Part shown: piece by piece, positions 1 to 16,672 of the stretch
Layout of the letters: each line of letters begins with the position of its first letter
Numbering within the stretch: the first letter of the stretch is position 1
Notes under the pieces: model-generated
Database searches by the model: none
What the model was told of the DNA's origin: nothing
The model's input: the letters and a program-made list of their open reading frames with translations, nothing else
DNA from: Triparma columacea
Lineage: Eukaryota; Sar; Bolidophyceae; Parmales; Triparmaceae
Assembly (NCBI GenBank): GCA_030267965.1
Contig: BRYA01001484.1
Coordinates: forward strand, 1-64,000
Reading direction: 5' to 3'
DNA length: 64,000 nt
Made by a program: the position numbers and the translations under genes

Positions 1-146
1 GAGAGAGAAGTTGAGAGGTAGGTAAAAGGTTTTTGTGTTAGTGTGAATGTGTGCTGGCCAAACCAACAAAAAAATATATACACTGCCTCAAATCCCTCTC
101 AAACTTTGCCAGCGTGCTCTTCTCGCATGTGGGTACCAGCCCACGC

Positions 147-154
147 AAAAAAAA
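147..154 (-). terminator. T8 Pol III-type terminator of the split tRNA
   Basis: Eight consecutive T residues on the minus strand begin 22 bases beyond the discriminator base of the tRNA at 176-374. Runs of four or more T on the coding strand are the usual RNA polymerase III stop signal. The duplicated copy has nine T at 16281-16289. The run supports Pol III transcription, but it could be a chance homopolymer. Confidence 0.5.
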
Positions 155-175: not shown

Positions 176-374
176 TACTAGAACCCGGGGCTAAGAGGAA
201 GATGAAGGTAAGAATGGGTTGAAGGGTAGAGTTATAAGGTACAGGGGAATAACTTACTTGAACCGGGGACCTGCTCGGTGTTAACGAGCCGTCATAACCA
301 CCTACTGTAAGCGTGTGGATTAGAAGAGGTTCAGAGGATTGAATAGGGTGGCTGTTACTTACGACCATCCCAGC
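176..374 (-). tRNA. tRNA-Val(AAC) interrupted by two GT-AG introns
   Basis: Three segments on the minus strand (374-363, 304-258, 190-176) join into a 74-base cloverleaf. The acceptor is GCTGGGA with TTCTAGT (seven pairs, three of them G-U) followed by discriminator A. The D-stem is GTC/GAC with an 11-base loop containing GG. The anticodon stem is GCTCG/CGAGC with loop TTAACAC, giving anticodon AAC after U33. The variable segment is AGGTC, and the T-stem CCCGG/CCGGG carries loop TTCAACC. The middle segment resembles animal tRNA-Val(AAC) closely from the D-loop to the T-loop. Intron 1 (362-305, 58 nt) lies after position 12 and intron 2 (257-191, 67 nt) after position 58. Both begin GTAAGT and end AG, and neither can be shifted without breaking the cloverleaf. 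Intron 2 ends in a pyrimidine tract. No mature 3' CCA is encoded. The A box and B box are both split, so normal Pol III promoter recognition is in question. The alternative is a degenerate tRNA-derived exon in an mRNA, but no reading frame fits. Confidence 0.8.
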
Positions 375-482
375 TTGATGCATGATGAGTCGATTTTTTG
401 TTACAATTTCAACTTTGCAATAAGCTTACTATAACCACTGCCAACCAAACCAAAATACCCTCTCCCTCCCCCACCCCCCAAA

Positions 483-3277
483 ATGCCCAAAGTACGTACC
501 TCTCTCCCCCCCTTCTTCCCCCTCTCTCCCTCTCCCCCCCTCTCCACCCCCTCTTTCCCCTTCCCCACTTCCCTTCCCCCGATTCCTCCTCCACCACCGA
601 CCTCCCTCGAATTCTATAGAACTTTTCTCTCCCTCCCTAACCCCTCCCCTCCCCCTCTTCCCCGCAGACTTCGTGGAAGTTTACCAAGGCGCAGCCCGCC
701 AAGAATACCTCGAACCAGATCAAGAGATCGAATGCGTCTTCCCAACCTGGTCGAAGGGCTCCAGGGAAGGAGGGTCAAAATATGCGTTCTCAAGATACGA
801 TTAAGCGGTTGAAGATGTACAACAACGGGAAAGCGATCCGTAATGCCGAAGGAACGGTTGTCGGTGGTCAGTTCATGATGAAGGACAGGGCTGGAGATGT
901 CAAGATCACTGCCAGCACTGGTAGGGTTGCCCCCGATAGGCGTTGGTTTGGTAATACTCGTGTCGTGGGTGCCACCGAGCTGGATAAGTTCAGGGAGGAG
1001 ATGACGACTTCTGCCGCCGACCCGTACTCCGTCGTAGTCGCTCGCAAGAAGCTCCCCATGGGCTTGCTCATGGACAGCGACACTTCCAAGAATGCTGCCA
1101 AGGCTGCCAAGGAGGGCCTGCTCATGAACGAGTCGTTCGAGCAGGCGTTCACGGGGAAGGTCGGCGGCGGGGCGAGGAAGCGCGTCAAGGTTGATCAGTT
1201 GTTGATTGGTCGTGAGGCTCAGACGAAGCGCAAGAAGACTGGAGCCAATGCCGCTGAGGGAGAGGCCACGGTGGTCGACAACCCTTACGGAGACGATGCT
1301 GACCCCTACTCTGCGCTGCTCAAGGTGAGAACGGGCATCAAATCATTATAATCAAATCAAGGCGGACAGGAGAGGAGAGGAGAGGATAAGGCTCTCACTT
1401 GTCTGACCACTACAAATTCAACACCTTCCTCGACGCTCATTTCACATTGCTTCGCTCATCGCTCATCGCTCAGGTCGCAACGTCCTCGAATCAGACCTAC
1501 GAGAAGGTCAACAACGAGGAGGGCATGGTCCCTTGGGGTAGGGATTCCAACATTGAGAAGACATCAGGAGAGGGCGTTGATTGGGTGCACGAGAAGAGCA
1601 ACGACCTCTTCCTCAAGGGCCAGTCTCGCCGTATCTGGGCTGAGTTGTACAAGGTCCTTGACTGTTCTGACGTCGTCCTTCACATCATTGACGCTCGTAA
1701 CGTTCCTGGAACCAAGTGCGAGATGATCGGCCAGCACCTCGCTCACAACGCGAAGCATAAGCACCTCATTTACGTTCTCAACAAGATCGACCTTGTCCCT
1801 TCCTGGGTCGCCAAGAGGTGGGTCGGTGAGCTATCGAAGGAGCGCCCGACCGTCGCGTTCCATGCTTCTATGACGCACGCCTTTGGTAAGGGTGCCCTGA
1901 TTTCTCTCTTGCGCCAGTTCGGGAAGCTCCTCAGCGATAAAAAGCAGATTTCGGTCGGGGTCGTCGGCTACCCTAATGTGGGAAAGAGCAGGTGAGAGTT
2001 GAGACGTCCAGGGATGAAGACGGGACATTGACGAGCAGTAGGGGTATGACACTAACACGTCGCTGTCTCCGTCGCCCACTAACACAACCCTCGCCCACTA
2101 ACACAACCCTCGCCCAGTGTGATCAACACGCTCATTTCCAAAAAGTCGTGCAAGGTGAGACTGGTGAAAGATGGGGAAAAGTGCTGCTGCGAGCAAGGAC
2201 ACTCGCTCGCAACGACACTCGCTCGCAACGACTCTCGCTCAACGCACAAACCTAACCACCCCACTCCCCACTAACATCCCAATAACGCACCAACCCCTTC
2301 CGCGACTCGCTTCGCTCGCCACCCTCACTTCGCTCGTCGCCCCCCCGCAGGTTGCGCCTGTCCCCGGAGAGACCAAGATTTGGCAGTACATTTCACTGAT
2401 GAAACGCATCTTCCTGATTGATTGTCCCGGTGTCGTCGTGAATTCTGTCGGTGAGGAGCAATTCTAAGTCGCTACGGTCAATCTTCATGCGACTCGCTTC
2501 GCTCATCGCGCCCCACCGCCATGCAATTCTAACTCGCTACGGTCAATCTTCATGCGACTCGCTTCGCTCGTCGCAGGTGACACCGAAGAGGATTCCGTTC
2601 TGAAGGGCGTCGTACGTGCTGAGCGGCTGCCCGACCCTACGGAGTGGATCCCTGCCATCTTGAGGACCGTGAAAAGGTCATACGTTGCCGCCTGTTATGG
2701 CTTGCCGGAGAAGGGGGAAGGAACTTGGAAGGATGACACTGACCTGCTTGAGAAGGTAAGAATGCAAACATGAAGCATCCGTTCCCTTCATCGCGCCCCC
2801 CCCCCAATAACGCACCCACCCCTTCCGCGACCCGCTTCGCTCGCCGCCCTCGCTTCGCTCGTCACCCCCTAGATCGGTCGCCAGACTGGGCGCCTTAAGA
2901 AGGGTGGTGATCCTGATACCTTCGTCACTGCTGTTCAGGTCATCAATGACTTCCAGAGGGGCAGGCTCCCTTACTATATTCCTCCTCCTGAGCTCAAGAC
3001 TGACGATGATGGGGCTGACAATGCAGCTTCCGCCGACGCGTCTTCCGAGAAGGCCGAGACTGCCACAATCAAGGGCGTAAAGTTGAAGAAGCAGGACTTG
3101 GATTTGATAGGCTTAGATAAGGGTGACGGTATTGGAGGTATGGATGGGGAAGGAGATGAGGAGGAGAGGGACGAGATAAGTGGTGCGAGTGGATCTGAAT
3201 CTGATGATGAAGACGACGACGACGATGACGACGACATGCCTCCTGTGGTGGTAGCCAAGGAGGATGACGAGTGGTAG
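483..3277 (+). CDS. NOG2: nucleolar GTP-binding protein 2 (NOG2/GNL2), 60S ribosome biogenesis GTPase
   Basis: Circularly permuted GTPase acting in the nucleolus and nucleoplasm on pre-60S particles, where NOG2/GNL2 proteins occupy the site later taken by the export adaptor. Exons by splice-site and frame agreement: 483-491, 668-1324, 1474-1991, 2118-2154, 2351-2450, 2577-2755 and 2873-3277. The first exon codes only for Met-Pro-Lys. The family's N-terminal basic region ([19 protein letters not shown]) precedes the G motifs, which appear in permuted order: G4 NKIDLVP, then G1 GYPNVGKSS (split by intron 3), then G3 DCPG. The C-terminal family helices ([14 protein letters not shown]) and an acidic tail rich in Asp end at EW. 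Five of the six introns contain parts of the GC-rich TCGCTTCGCTC hairpin repeat. The 5' end lies about 110 bases from the divergent split tRNA. The 5' end is duplicated at 16.6 kb. Confidence 0.93.
2155..2350 (+). repeat. intron filled with hairpin repeat (introner-like)
   Basis: NOG2 intron 4. It carries stacked CACTCGCTCGCAACGA units, then the segment CCAATAACGCACCAACCCCT and the core TCGCTTCGCTC with 5' arm GCGAC (2302-2306) and a later GTCGC arm before the acceptor. Almost the same block recurs at 2807-2847 and 3384-3427. Confidence 0.75.
2451..2576 (+). repeat. intron made of two tandem hairpin-repeat copies
   Basis: NOG2 intron 5 consists of two ~58-base direct copies (CTACGGTCAATCTTCATGC is in both), each ending in a hairpin with GCGAC, core TCGCTTCGCTC and a pairing arm (ATCGC or GTCGC). 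The second hairpin abuts the 3' splice AG directly. Confidence 0.85.
2756..2872 (+). repeat. intron with hairpin repeat (introner-like)
   Basis: NOG2 intron 6. It repeats the AATAACGCACCCACCCCTTC segment followed by GCGAC, CCGCTTCGCTC and GCCGC, then a second CGCTTCGCTC half-hairpin just before the TAG acceptor. Confidence 0.8.
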
Positions 3278-16132: not shown

Positions 16133-16645
16133 AGGAGAGAGAAGTTGAGAGGTAGGTAAAAGGTTTTTGTGTTAGTGTGAATGTGTGCTGGCCAAACCAA
16201 CAAAAATATATATACACTGCCTCAAATCCCTCTCAAACTTTGCCAGCGTGCTCTTCTCGCATGTAGGTACCAGCCCGCGCAAAAAAAAAGTGTGGAGAGA
16301 TCCATCACAATACTAGAACCCGGGGCTACGAGAGGAAGATGAAGGTAAGAATGGGTTGAAGGGTAAAGTTATAAGGTACAGGGGAATAACTTACTTGAAC
16401 CGGGGACCTGCTCGGTGTTAACGAGCCGTCATAACCACCTACTGTAAGCGTGTGGATTAGAAGAGGTTCAGAGGAGTTGGATAGGGTGGCTGTTACTTAC
16501 GACCATCCCAGCTTGATGCATGATGAGTCGATTTTTTGTTACAATTTCAACTTTGCAATAAGCTTACTATTACCACTGCCAACCAAACCAAAATACCCTC
16601 TCCCTCCCCCACCCCCCAAAATGCCCAAAGTACGTACCTCTCTCT
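16133..16645. repeat. segmental duplication, copy 2
   Basis: Near-identical to 1-507, in the same orientation, about 16.1 kb away and only ~475 bases after the N gap. Similarity ends a few bases inside NOG2 intron 1 on the right. The differences seen are isolated substitutions and 1-2 base indels. It may be a true dispersed duplication or a leftover allele placed by the assembler. Confidence 0.95.
16311..16512 (-). tRNA. second split tRNA-Val(AAC)
   Basis: Segments 16512-16501, 16441-16395 and 16325-16311 are identical base for base to the three tRNA segments of copy 1. Intron 1 is 59 nt and intron 2 is 69 nt; both keep GTAAGT at the 5' end and AG at the 3' end. Against copy 1 there are two indels and two substitutions, all in the introns. 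A T9 run follows at 16289-16281. It should give the same mature tRNA. Confidence 0.75.
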
Positions 16646-16672
16646 TCCCCTTCTCCCCCCTGCAGCGAGGGA
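16621..16672 (+). pseudogene. truncated NOG2 5' end (duplicate)
   Basis: ATG-CCC-AAA followed by GTACGTACCTCTCTC repeats NOG2 exon 1 and its donor site, but the sequence then diverges. A CTGCAG acceptor follows after about 45 bases, and the next bases (AGGGAATCGATCG) are unrelated to NOG2 exon 2. No long frame continues. It looks like a promoter and first exon carried along with the tRNA duplication. Confidence 0.75.

Follow-up and report, generated by a model that had tools for sequence, protein, structure and literature searches.

The best explanation of the sequences described here, to which we assign a probability of about 85%, is that U2-type spliceosomal introns reside in a large part of the nuclear tRNA genes that would be transcribed by RNA polymerase III (Pol III). 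On the basis of a single tRNA-Val(AAC) gene, the initial annotation had proposed that either the spliceosome acts on a tRNA precursor or a new class of introns is involved. This proposal has gained support: ten more tRNA genes split by GT-AG introns were found in the same genome, none of the 14 introns has the bulge-helix-bulge motif at its junctions, and the Val(AAC) anticodon arm has no further exact or one-mismatch copy in the assembly.

The Split tRNA-Val(AAC) Gene

The window (the whole stretch of DNA analysed, 64,000 nucleotides) contains two tRNA-Val(AAC) copies on the minus strand, at 374-176 and 16512-16311, both of them interrupted at positions 12/13 and 58/59 by GT-AG introns. The features of the two copies are:

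363..374, minus strand: copy 1 exon 1, positions 1-12 (12 nt)
305..362, minus strand: copy 1 intron 1, 58 nt, GTAAGT...TTACAG, at 12/13, cuts the A-box region
258..304, minus strand: copy 1 exon 2, positions 13-58, 47 nt, anticodon AAC
191..257, minus strand: copy 1 intron 2, 67 nt, GTAAGT...TCTTAG, at 58/59, cuts the B-box region
207..212, minus strand: branch-site-like CTTACC within copy 1 intron 2
176..190, minus strand: copy 1 exon 3, positions 59-73 (15 nt)
392..400, minus strand: copy 1 upstream element CAAAAAATC
147..154, minus strand: T8 run after copy 1, Pol III-type terminator
98..112, minus strand: copy 1 downstream tag CTGGCAAAGTTTGAG
16501..16512, minus strand: copy 2 exon 1
16442..16500, minus strand: copy 2 intron 1, 59 nt, GT-AG
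16395..16441, minus strand: copy 2 exon 2
16326..16394, minus strand: copy 2 intron 2, 69 nt, GT-AG
16311..16325, minus strand: copy 2 exon 3
16530..16538, minus strand: copy 2 upstream element CAAAAAATC
16281..16289, minus strand: T9 run after copy 2
16232..16246, minus strand: copy 2 downstream tag

The spliced 74-mer has all seven acceptor pairs (three of them G-U) and full anticodon and T stems. Since ARAGORN calls tRNA-Val(aac) from this doubly spliced sequence, the split gene of the initial annotation is real, but its second copy with identical exons had been overlooked. The same program makes no call on the unspliced gene or on either of the singly spliced forms, and nothing was found when the window was scanned for tRNAs unspliced (ARAGORN, Rfam). 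Only three of 829 two-intron splicings, built from 62 candidate introns in the local 360 bp with donors and acceptors filtered by simple motifs, yield an ARAGORN call, and all three are variants of tRNA-Val(AAC). Copy 2 sits in a duplication (1-523 versus 16135-16661, 97.5% identity), and the 13 alignment columns that differ between the copies comprise eight in the flanks, five in the introns and none in the 74 exon bases. One of the intron changes is the insertion of two bases directly before the acceptor, which still reads TAG.

The junctions had been regarded as unambiguous. This is roughly correct for intron 2, where three junctions within 6 nt have the same score. It does not hold for intron 1: the D loop offers 31 junctions that score as well or better, and one of these, which is not GT-AG, is ahead by one point. 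In both introns GT-AG belongs to the possible choices. The interruption of both the A box and the B box was confirmed, as both regions are cut in both copies.

Split tRNA Genes in the Genome

The assembly containing the window is eukaryotic and comprises 37.85 Mb in 789 contigs. The best matches of the Sec7 protein encoded in the window are from Triparma verrucosa (47% identity) and T. laevis (46%), the 8000 candidates sharing most words having been scored, and an exon of the NOG2 gene has one database match at 100% across its length. The window has a GC content of 52%; PMC10328945 gives eight Parmales genomes of 31.0-43.6 Mb, seven of them with 49.8-52.4% GC, values with which the assembly size and the GC content agree. 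The host thus looks like a bolidophyte-like stramenopile close to Parmales, a group of small marine algae with diatoms as relatives, and a fungal origin was rejected. A tandem repeat family without visible relation to tRNAs, GTTCRAGTGAGT, recurs at a spacing of approximately 237 bp or multiples of it at loci L009, L010, L019 and L020 and on contigs C218, C225 and C393.

The ten further GT-AG-split genes, all of which lie outside the window contig, are Arg(CCT) on C11, Gln(TTG) on C45, Pro(CGG) twice on C54, Lys(TTT) on C69, Trp(CCA) on C81, Leu(TAG) on C4, Leu(CAA) on C734, Arg(TCT) on C271 and Thr(CGT) on C326. Altogether this makes 12 split genes with 16 introns (14 non-redundant); Arg(TCT) and Thr(CGT) carry two introns each, as does Val(AAC). 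The 14 introns occupy 14 distinct positions (numbered by hand), ranging from the acceptor stem to the T stem: 5/6, 9/10, 11/12, 12/13, 13/14, 14/15, 15/16, 24/25, 25/26, 27/28, 57/58, 58/59, 63/64 and 64/65. None of them is at 37/38.

Loci to be read were picked by a B-box pattern, a tRNA model or a flanking tag. The Arg(CCT) and Gln genes were found via ARAGORN without a GT-AG rule, Lys and Trp came from a scan restricted to GT-AG introns, and the Pro, Leu(CAA), Leu(TAG), Arg(TCT) and Thr genes were assembled by eye with GT-AG in mind; the purpose-built scanner did not pick up Leu(CAA), Leu(TAG), Arg(TCT) or Thr(CGT), and these four genes were tested after their assembly. Three candidates from a scan that permitted one T-loop intron together with as many as two further upstream (scores 22-23) were false and consisted of low-complexity repeats. 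A first Pro assembly on locus L063 (score 23) was also wrong, and the genes kept score 24-26.

When spliced, each of the 12 genes gives a complete cloverleaf from which ARAGORN calls the right tRNA, with one acceptor mismatch in Arg(TCT). When unspliced, eight are missed. The other four are called, each with a spurious intron in the anticodon loop; the anticodon is right for Lys and Trp and wrong for Gln, and Arg(CCT) is called as Leu. Standard tRNA scans would consequently undercount genomes of this sort. The mature sequence is identical for both Pro(CGG) genes, but their introns (148 versus 108 nt) do not resemble each other significantly (best blastn segment of 8 nt, E 0.26). They are found on the minus strand of L063 (C54) in a tandem array with units of approximately 320 bp; in the two units the tRNA exons are identical, the introns dissimilar and the intron positions one base apart. 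At approximately 555-600 of L102 the tRNA-Trp(CCA) gene has an odd variable region of 16 nt, either a long arm or a further small insertion.

Two samples, both independent of intron position, place the split genes among the other tRNA genes. The downstream tag CTGGCAAAGTTTGAG occurs at 16 places in the genome, compared with none for a reversed-pattern control, and 15 of these hold a tRNA gene. Eight of the 15 are GT-AG split (C4, C11, C81, C271, C326, C734 and C762, the last twice), six are uninterrupted (Ile TAT, Ser TGA, Leu TAA, Leu CAG, Thr TGT and Gly CCC) and one, Pro AGG, has a 37/38 intron; at the remaining place, on C208, there is no tRNA within the 251 bp read. Twelve of the tag places were known beforehand, and the four new ones comprise one split gene, one gene with a 37/38 intron, one intact gene and the empty place. 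The B-box sample, in which 100 of 245 matches were read (approximately half of them as 101-base pieces) and which is blind to genes split inside the B box, contained ten well-formed tRNA genes, of which six are split, along with a single degenerate Arg(CCG) copy.

A genome search with RF00005 gave 14 matches at E 0.001 and 22 at E 10, counts that are incomplete because 63 of 675 candidates were scored and the intact Gly(CCC) gene was missed. The T-loop pattern GTTCRAGTRNGT had 128 matches against 120 for its control, with no tRNA among the 30 loci fetched, and a stricter form, GGTTCRAGTRAG, had 22 against 20; among its matches, a tRNA could be assembled only at the two window copies. The sequence ATTGCAAAAAAT was found at eight further places (C152, C155, C157, C220, C348, C471, C650 and C724). 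B-box matches with five T-stem pairs and no anticodon arm in the stretch read were observed at L125 (C141:19285) and L048 (C26:45629), where there may be a gene split near the variable loop.

Intron Ends and Internal Signals

All 14 non-redundant introns begin with GT and end with AG. The donor is GTAAGT in eight introns, GTGAGT in four, and GTAAGC and GTACGT in one each (GTRAGT in 12 of 14), and the acceptor is YAG in 13, the exception being AAG in Trp. No U12-type donor (ATATCC or GTATCC) is present among them. The word CTTACC is located 8-35 nt from the 3′ end in eight of the 14 introns, whereas in 2000 shuffles the average was 0.5 and the highest count 4. The looser CTNAC is present in 11, which equals the maximum of 500 shuffles (mean 5.5), and three introns have no CTNAC 10-60 nt from the 3′ end. 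The 22 nt preceding the acceptor are 81% pyrimidine, versus 57% in a noisy set of mRNA-like introns.

All 256 pairs of donor and acceptor dinucleotides were compared for the cloverleaf score that they allow (for Leu(TAG) with its 11-nt variable arm permitted). GT-AG reaches the top score in 12 of 12 genes and the next-best pairs, AG-TA and TA-GG, in four, partly as shifted versions of the same junctions. In Arg(TCT) GT-AG is the sole top pair, and elsewhere it is tied with 1-28 others; the weight of the test thus rests on the recurrence of GT-AG across genes and not on single genes. Nor is the test blind, because Lys and Trp came from the GT-AG-only scan and Pro, Leu, Arg(TCT) and Thr from assembly with GT-AG in mind. 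In ten of the 14 introns the choice is limited to 1-5 fitting junctions within 6 nt, always including GT-AG; the cloverleaf by itself does not pin down several D-loop junctions.

The tRNA introns are 58-75 nt long, except for the two Pro introns. By comparison, the five introns of the NOG2-like gene in the window, placed by eye from the reading frame, measure 117-196 nt, with CAG or TAG acceptors and the donors GTGAGA (three times), GTGAGG and GTAAGA, whereas the tRNA introns mostly have T at +6. The NOG2-like gene introns (window 1325-2872) contain CGCTTCGCTC-type repeats. The mRNA-like set comprises 95 introns with a median of 170 nt and mostly GTGAGG or GTGAGA donors; it was collected automatically with a donor filter, is noisy and serves as background only, a search without donor bias having been too noisy. 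Being shorter and having stronger donors, the tRNA introns are no random draw from the mRNA introns, and this gap in length and donors is a point against the simplest spliceosomal picture. The only sequences shared among the 14 introns are short 9-mers (pyrimidine-rich and branch-like words), and therefore no common introner-like element is visible.

Since CTTAC is complementary to the donor GTAAG, a role in pairing the intron ends is possible, and a separate, undescribed nuclear class of GT-AG introns could be imagined in which this pairing makes the classical spliceosome unneeded. In spite of the complementarity and of ATTCTTACC, which occurs in four introns, such a class seems very improbable, because the four GTGAGT introns have no CTCAC partners, Leu(CAA) and Arg(TCT) intron 1 contain CTTACC, Trp contains CTAACC, Thr intron 1 has no CTNAC at all, and YTNAY is the ordinary form of a branch site.

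Flanking Elements and Transcription

The element CAAAAAATC or a close form of it is found 25-57 bp upstream of nine of the 12 split genes and of eight of the ten intact or 37/38-intron genes (Arg(CCG) left out). It was not seen at the two Pro(CGG) genes, Ile(TAT) and Pro(AGG), and the stretch read at Thr(CGT) was too short. A run of seven to nine T residues starts within 21 bp past the 3′ end of nine of the 12 split genes; the two Pro genes have T6 further off, and the Thr gene was read as far as T4. With at most one mismatch, the downstream tag follows ten of the 12 split genes and eight of the ten others, being absent at both Pro(CGG) and both Lys(CTT) genes. Both Pro(CGG) genes are thus without the shared flanking elements. 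No match to the tag was found in viral contigs. Should the assembly be metagenomic, some contamination would be possible, but the shared flanks tie most of the tRNA genes together.

Past the terminator of many tRNA genes, behind a short GC-rich stretch that may form a hairpin, there is a conserved block, approximately GAGAGGAGCAYGCTGGCAAAGTTTGAGAGTGATTGGAG. It was observed at L004, L044, L053, L057, L092, L094, L102, L111, L115, L164 and L165, and in the window at 98-112 and 16232-16246.

The A-box and B-box regions extend over positions 8-19 and 52-62, respectively. One or the other is cut in eight of the 12 split genes, and in Val(AAC) both are. We infer that external signals bear much of the promoter function, so that the gene interior may be broken.

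The pathway that we propose would run as follows. A large share of the nuclear tRNA genes would have gained U2-type introns, inserted at many different sites along the tRNA. The precursor would be a Pol III transcript that starts mainly where the external upstream element directs (CAAAAAATC or a near variant, approximately 25-57 bp ahead of the gene) and ends at the T run, and for this reason the cutting of the A and B boxes could be tolerated. The spliceosome would then excise the introns, using a GTRAGT-like donor, a CTTACC-like branch site and the AG acceptor, after which the ends would be trimmed and the tRNA folded in the usual way. The exons, the GT-AG junctions, the cloverleaves and the common flanks are visible in the sequence; transcription by Pol III, the promoter function of the upstream element, splicing and the part of the spliceosome in it are inferred.

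Intact Genes and Dead Copies

An intact tRNA-Val(AAC) gene elsewhere in the genome, which could have supplied the tRNA, had been considered in the initial annotation. The 37.85-Mb assembly contains no further exact or one-mismatch Val(AAC) anticodon arm: there are two exact matches (both in the window), none at one mismatch, two at two mismatches (C137 and C473) and 22 at three, in a search that is blind to a Val(AAC) gene with a more different arm. The C137 match was rejected on reading, as it is not a tRNA. In the long ORFs of the window, GTT and GTC together account for 341 of 601 Val codons. Anticodon-arm searches covered Val(AAC) and Trp(CCA), and the Trp arm has two exact matches, the split gene on C81, which was read, and one on C394; we do not claim that all Trp genes are split.

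The split copies might be dead genes broken by insertions, with intact genes supplying the tRNAs. Preserved exon pairing, the GT-AG ends of every insertion, the retention of promoter-like and terminator elements in most split genes, the identical exon columns of the two Val copies and the lack of another exact or one-mismatch Val(AAC) arm make this highly unlikely, even though intact tRNA genes of other anticodons are present, a further exact Trp arm exists on C394 and some tRNA-like copies, for example Arg(CCG), resemble dispersed repeats without gene flanks. Four Arg(CCG) copies (L005-L008; also L112 and L116) have neither the upstream element nor the tag; some are degenerate, and they look like a tRNA-derived dispersed repeat.

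Bulge-Helix-Bulge Motifs and the tRNA Splicing Endonuclease

Ectopic and multiple tRNA introns are known in algae (PMC4090602, PMC3978253), and the genome encodes one tRNA_int_endo domain (C29), which is expected because 37/38 introns exist here. The introns could accordingly be of the archaeal, Cyanidioschyzon or nucleomorph kind, cut at a bulge-helix-bulge by the endonuclease and joined by a ligase, with the GT-AG ends coincidental. We give this reading a very small chance. The motif, raised in the initial annotation as the mark of ordinary ectopic tRNA introns, fits none of the 14 junction pairs in strict or relaxed form, equivalent shifts included, a test that is weak for relaxed eukaryotic forms. 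GT-AG ends with an extended donor in 14 of 14 introns and CTTACC in eight of 14 would, moreover, be unexpected from an endonuclease mechanism. The two 37/38 introns read in the same genome, in Val(TAC) (10 nt) and Pro(AGG) (approximately 27 nt), also fail the strict form, and the motif test therefore mainly excludes the archaeal and Cyanidioschyzon kind.

Spliceosomal removal of U2-type introns, our preferred reading, has wider implications. It is likely that in this free-living alga a large share of the nuclear tRNAs is made via the spliceosome, from Pol III precursors with one or two U2-type introns located anywhere from the acceptor stem to the T stem, that these precursors are the sole source of at least one tRNA, Val(AAC), and that external promoter elements free the gene interior to the extent that the TFIIIC boxes may be broken. 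If true, two pathways regarded as separate would be joined, and the spliceosome would be needed for translation itself, so that protein synthesis in this organism would hinge directly on the splicing of mRNA. It would also have to be asked how Pol III locates genes whose A and B boxes are broken.

Comparison with Known Systems

The components are known (spliceosomal introns, the U6 precedent for Pol III), but we are aware of no kind of tRNA gene to which the present ones would belong. Among the matches listed in a search of the open literature, with subscription papers mostly outside, there was no report of spliceosomal introns in nuclear tRNA genes. Introns of the mRNA type are known in the U6 snRNA genes of fission yeast and some basidiomycete yeasts. 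As in those genes, spliceosomal-type introns are found here inside a small Pol III RNA gene; here, however, the host RNA is a tRNA, many genes are affected and the internal promoter is cut. The U6 gene of this genome is uninterrupted (C272:8399-8507, 63.9 bits, positions 1-105).

Introners are known from protein genes. Introner elements and other surges of spliceosomal intron gain in algae (PMC12730881) resemble the present case in that many GT-AG introns occur in one lineage, but the tRNA introns here share only short words.

Canonical tRNA introns at 37/38 are present in the same genome, but none of the 14 GT-AG introns is at that position. To our knowledge, it is the tRNA splicing endonuclease that removes all nuclear tRNA introns described so far. 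PMC13149111 and PMC4090602 are in line with this, and the former treats the tRNA splicing enzymes as distinct from the spliceosome. According to PMC4090602 and PMC3978253, the ectopic introns of Cyanidioschyzon merolae, cryptophyte nucleomorphs and archaea are similar in occupying the D arm, the T arm and the stems and in occurring more than once per gene, and those of the Guillardia theta nucleomorph are 3-24 nt long. The ectopic introns of those systems carry the bulge-helix-bulge, whereas the introns described here are without it and are GT-AG introns of 58-148 nt.
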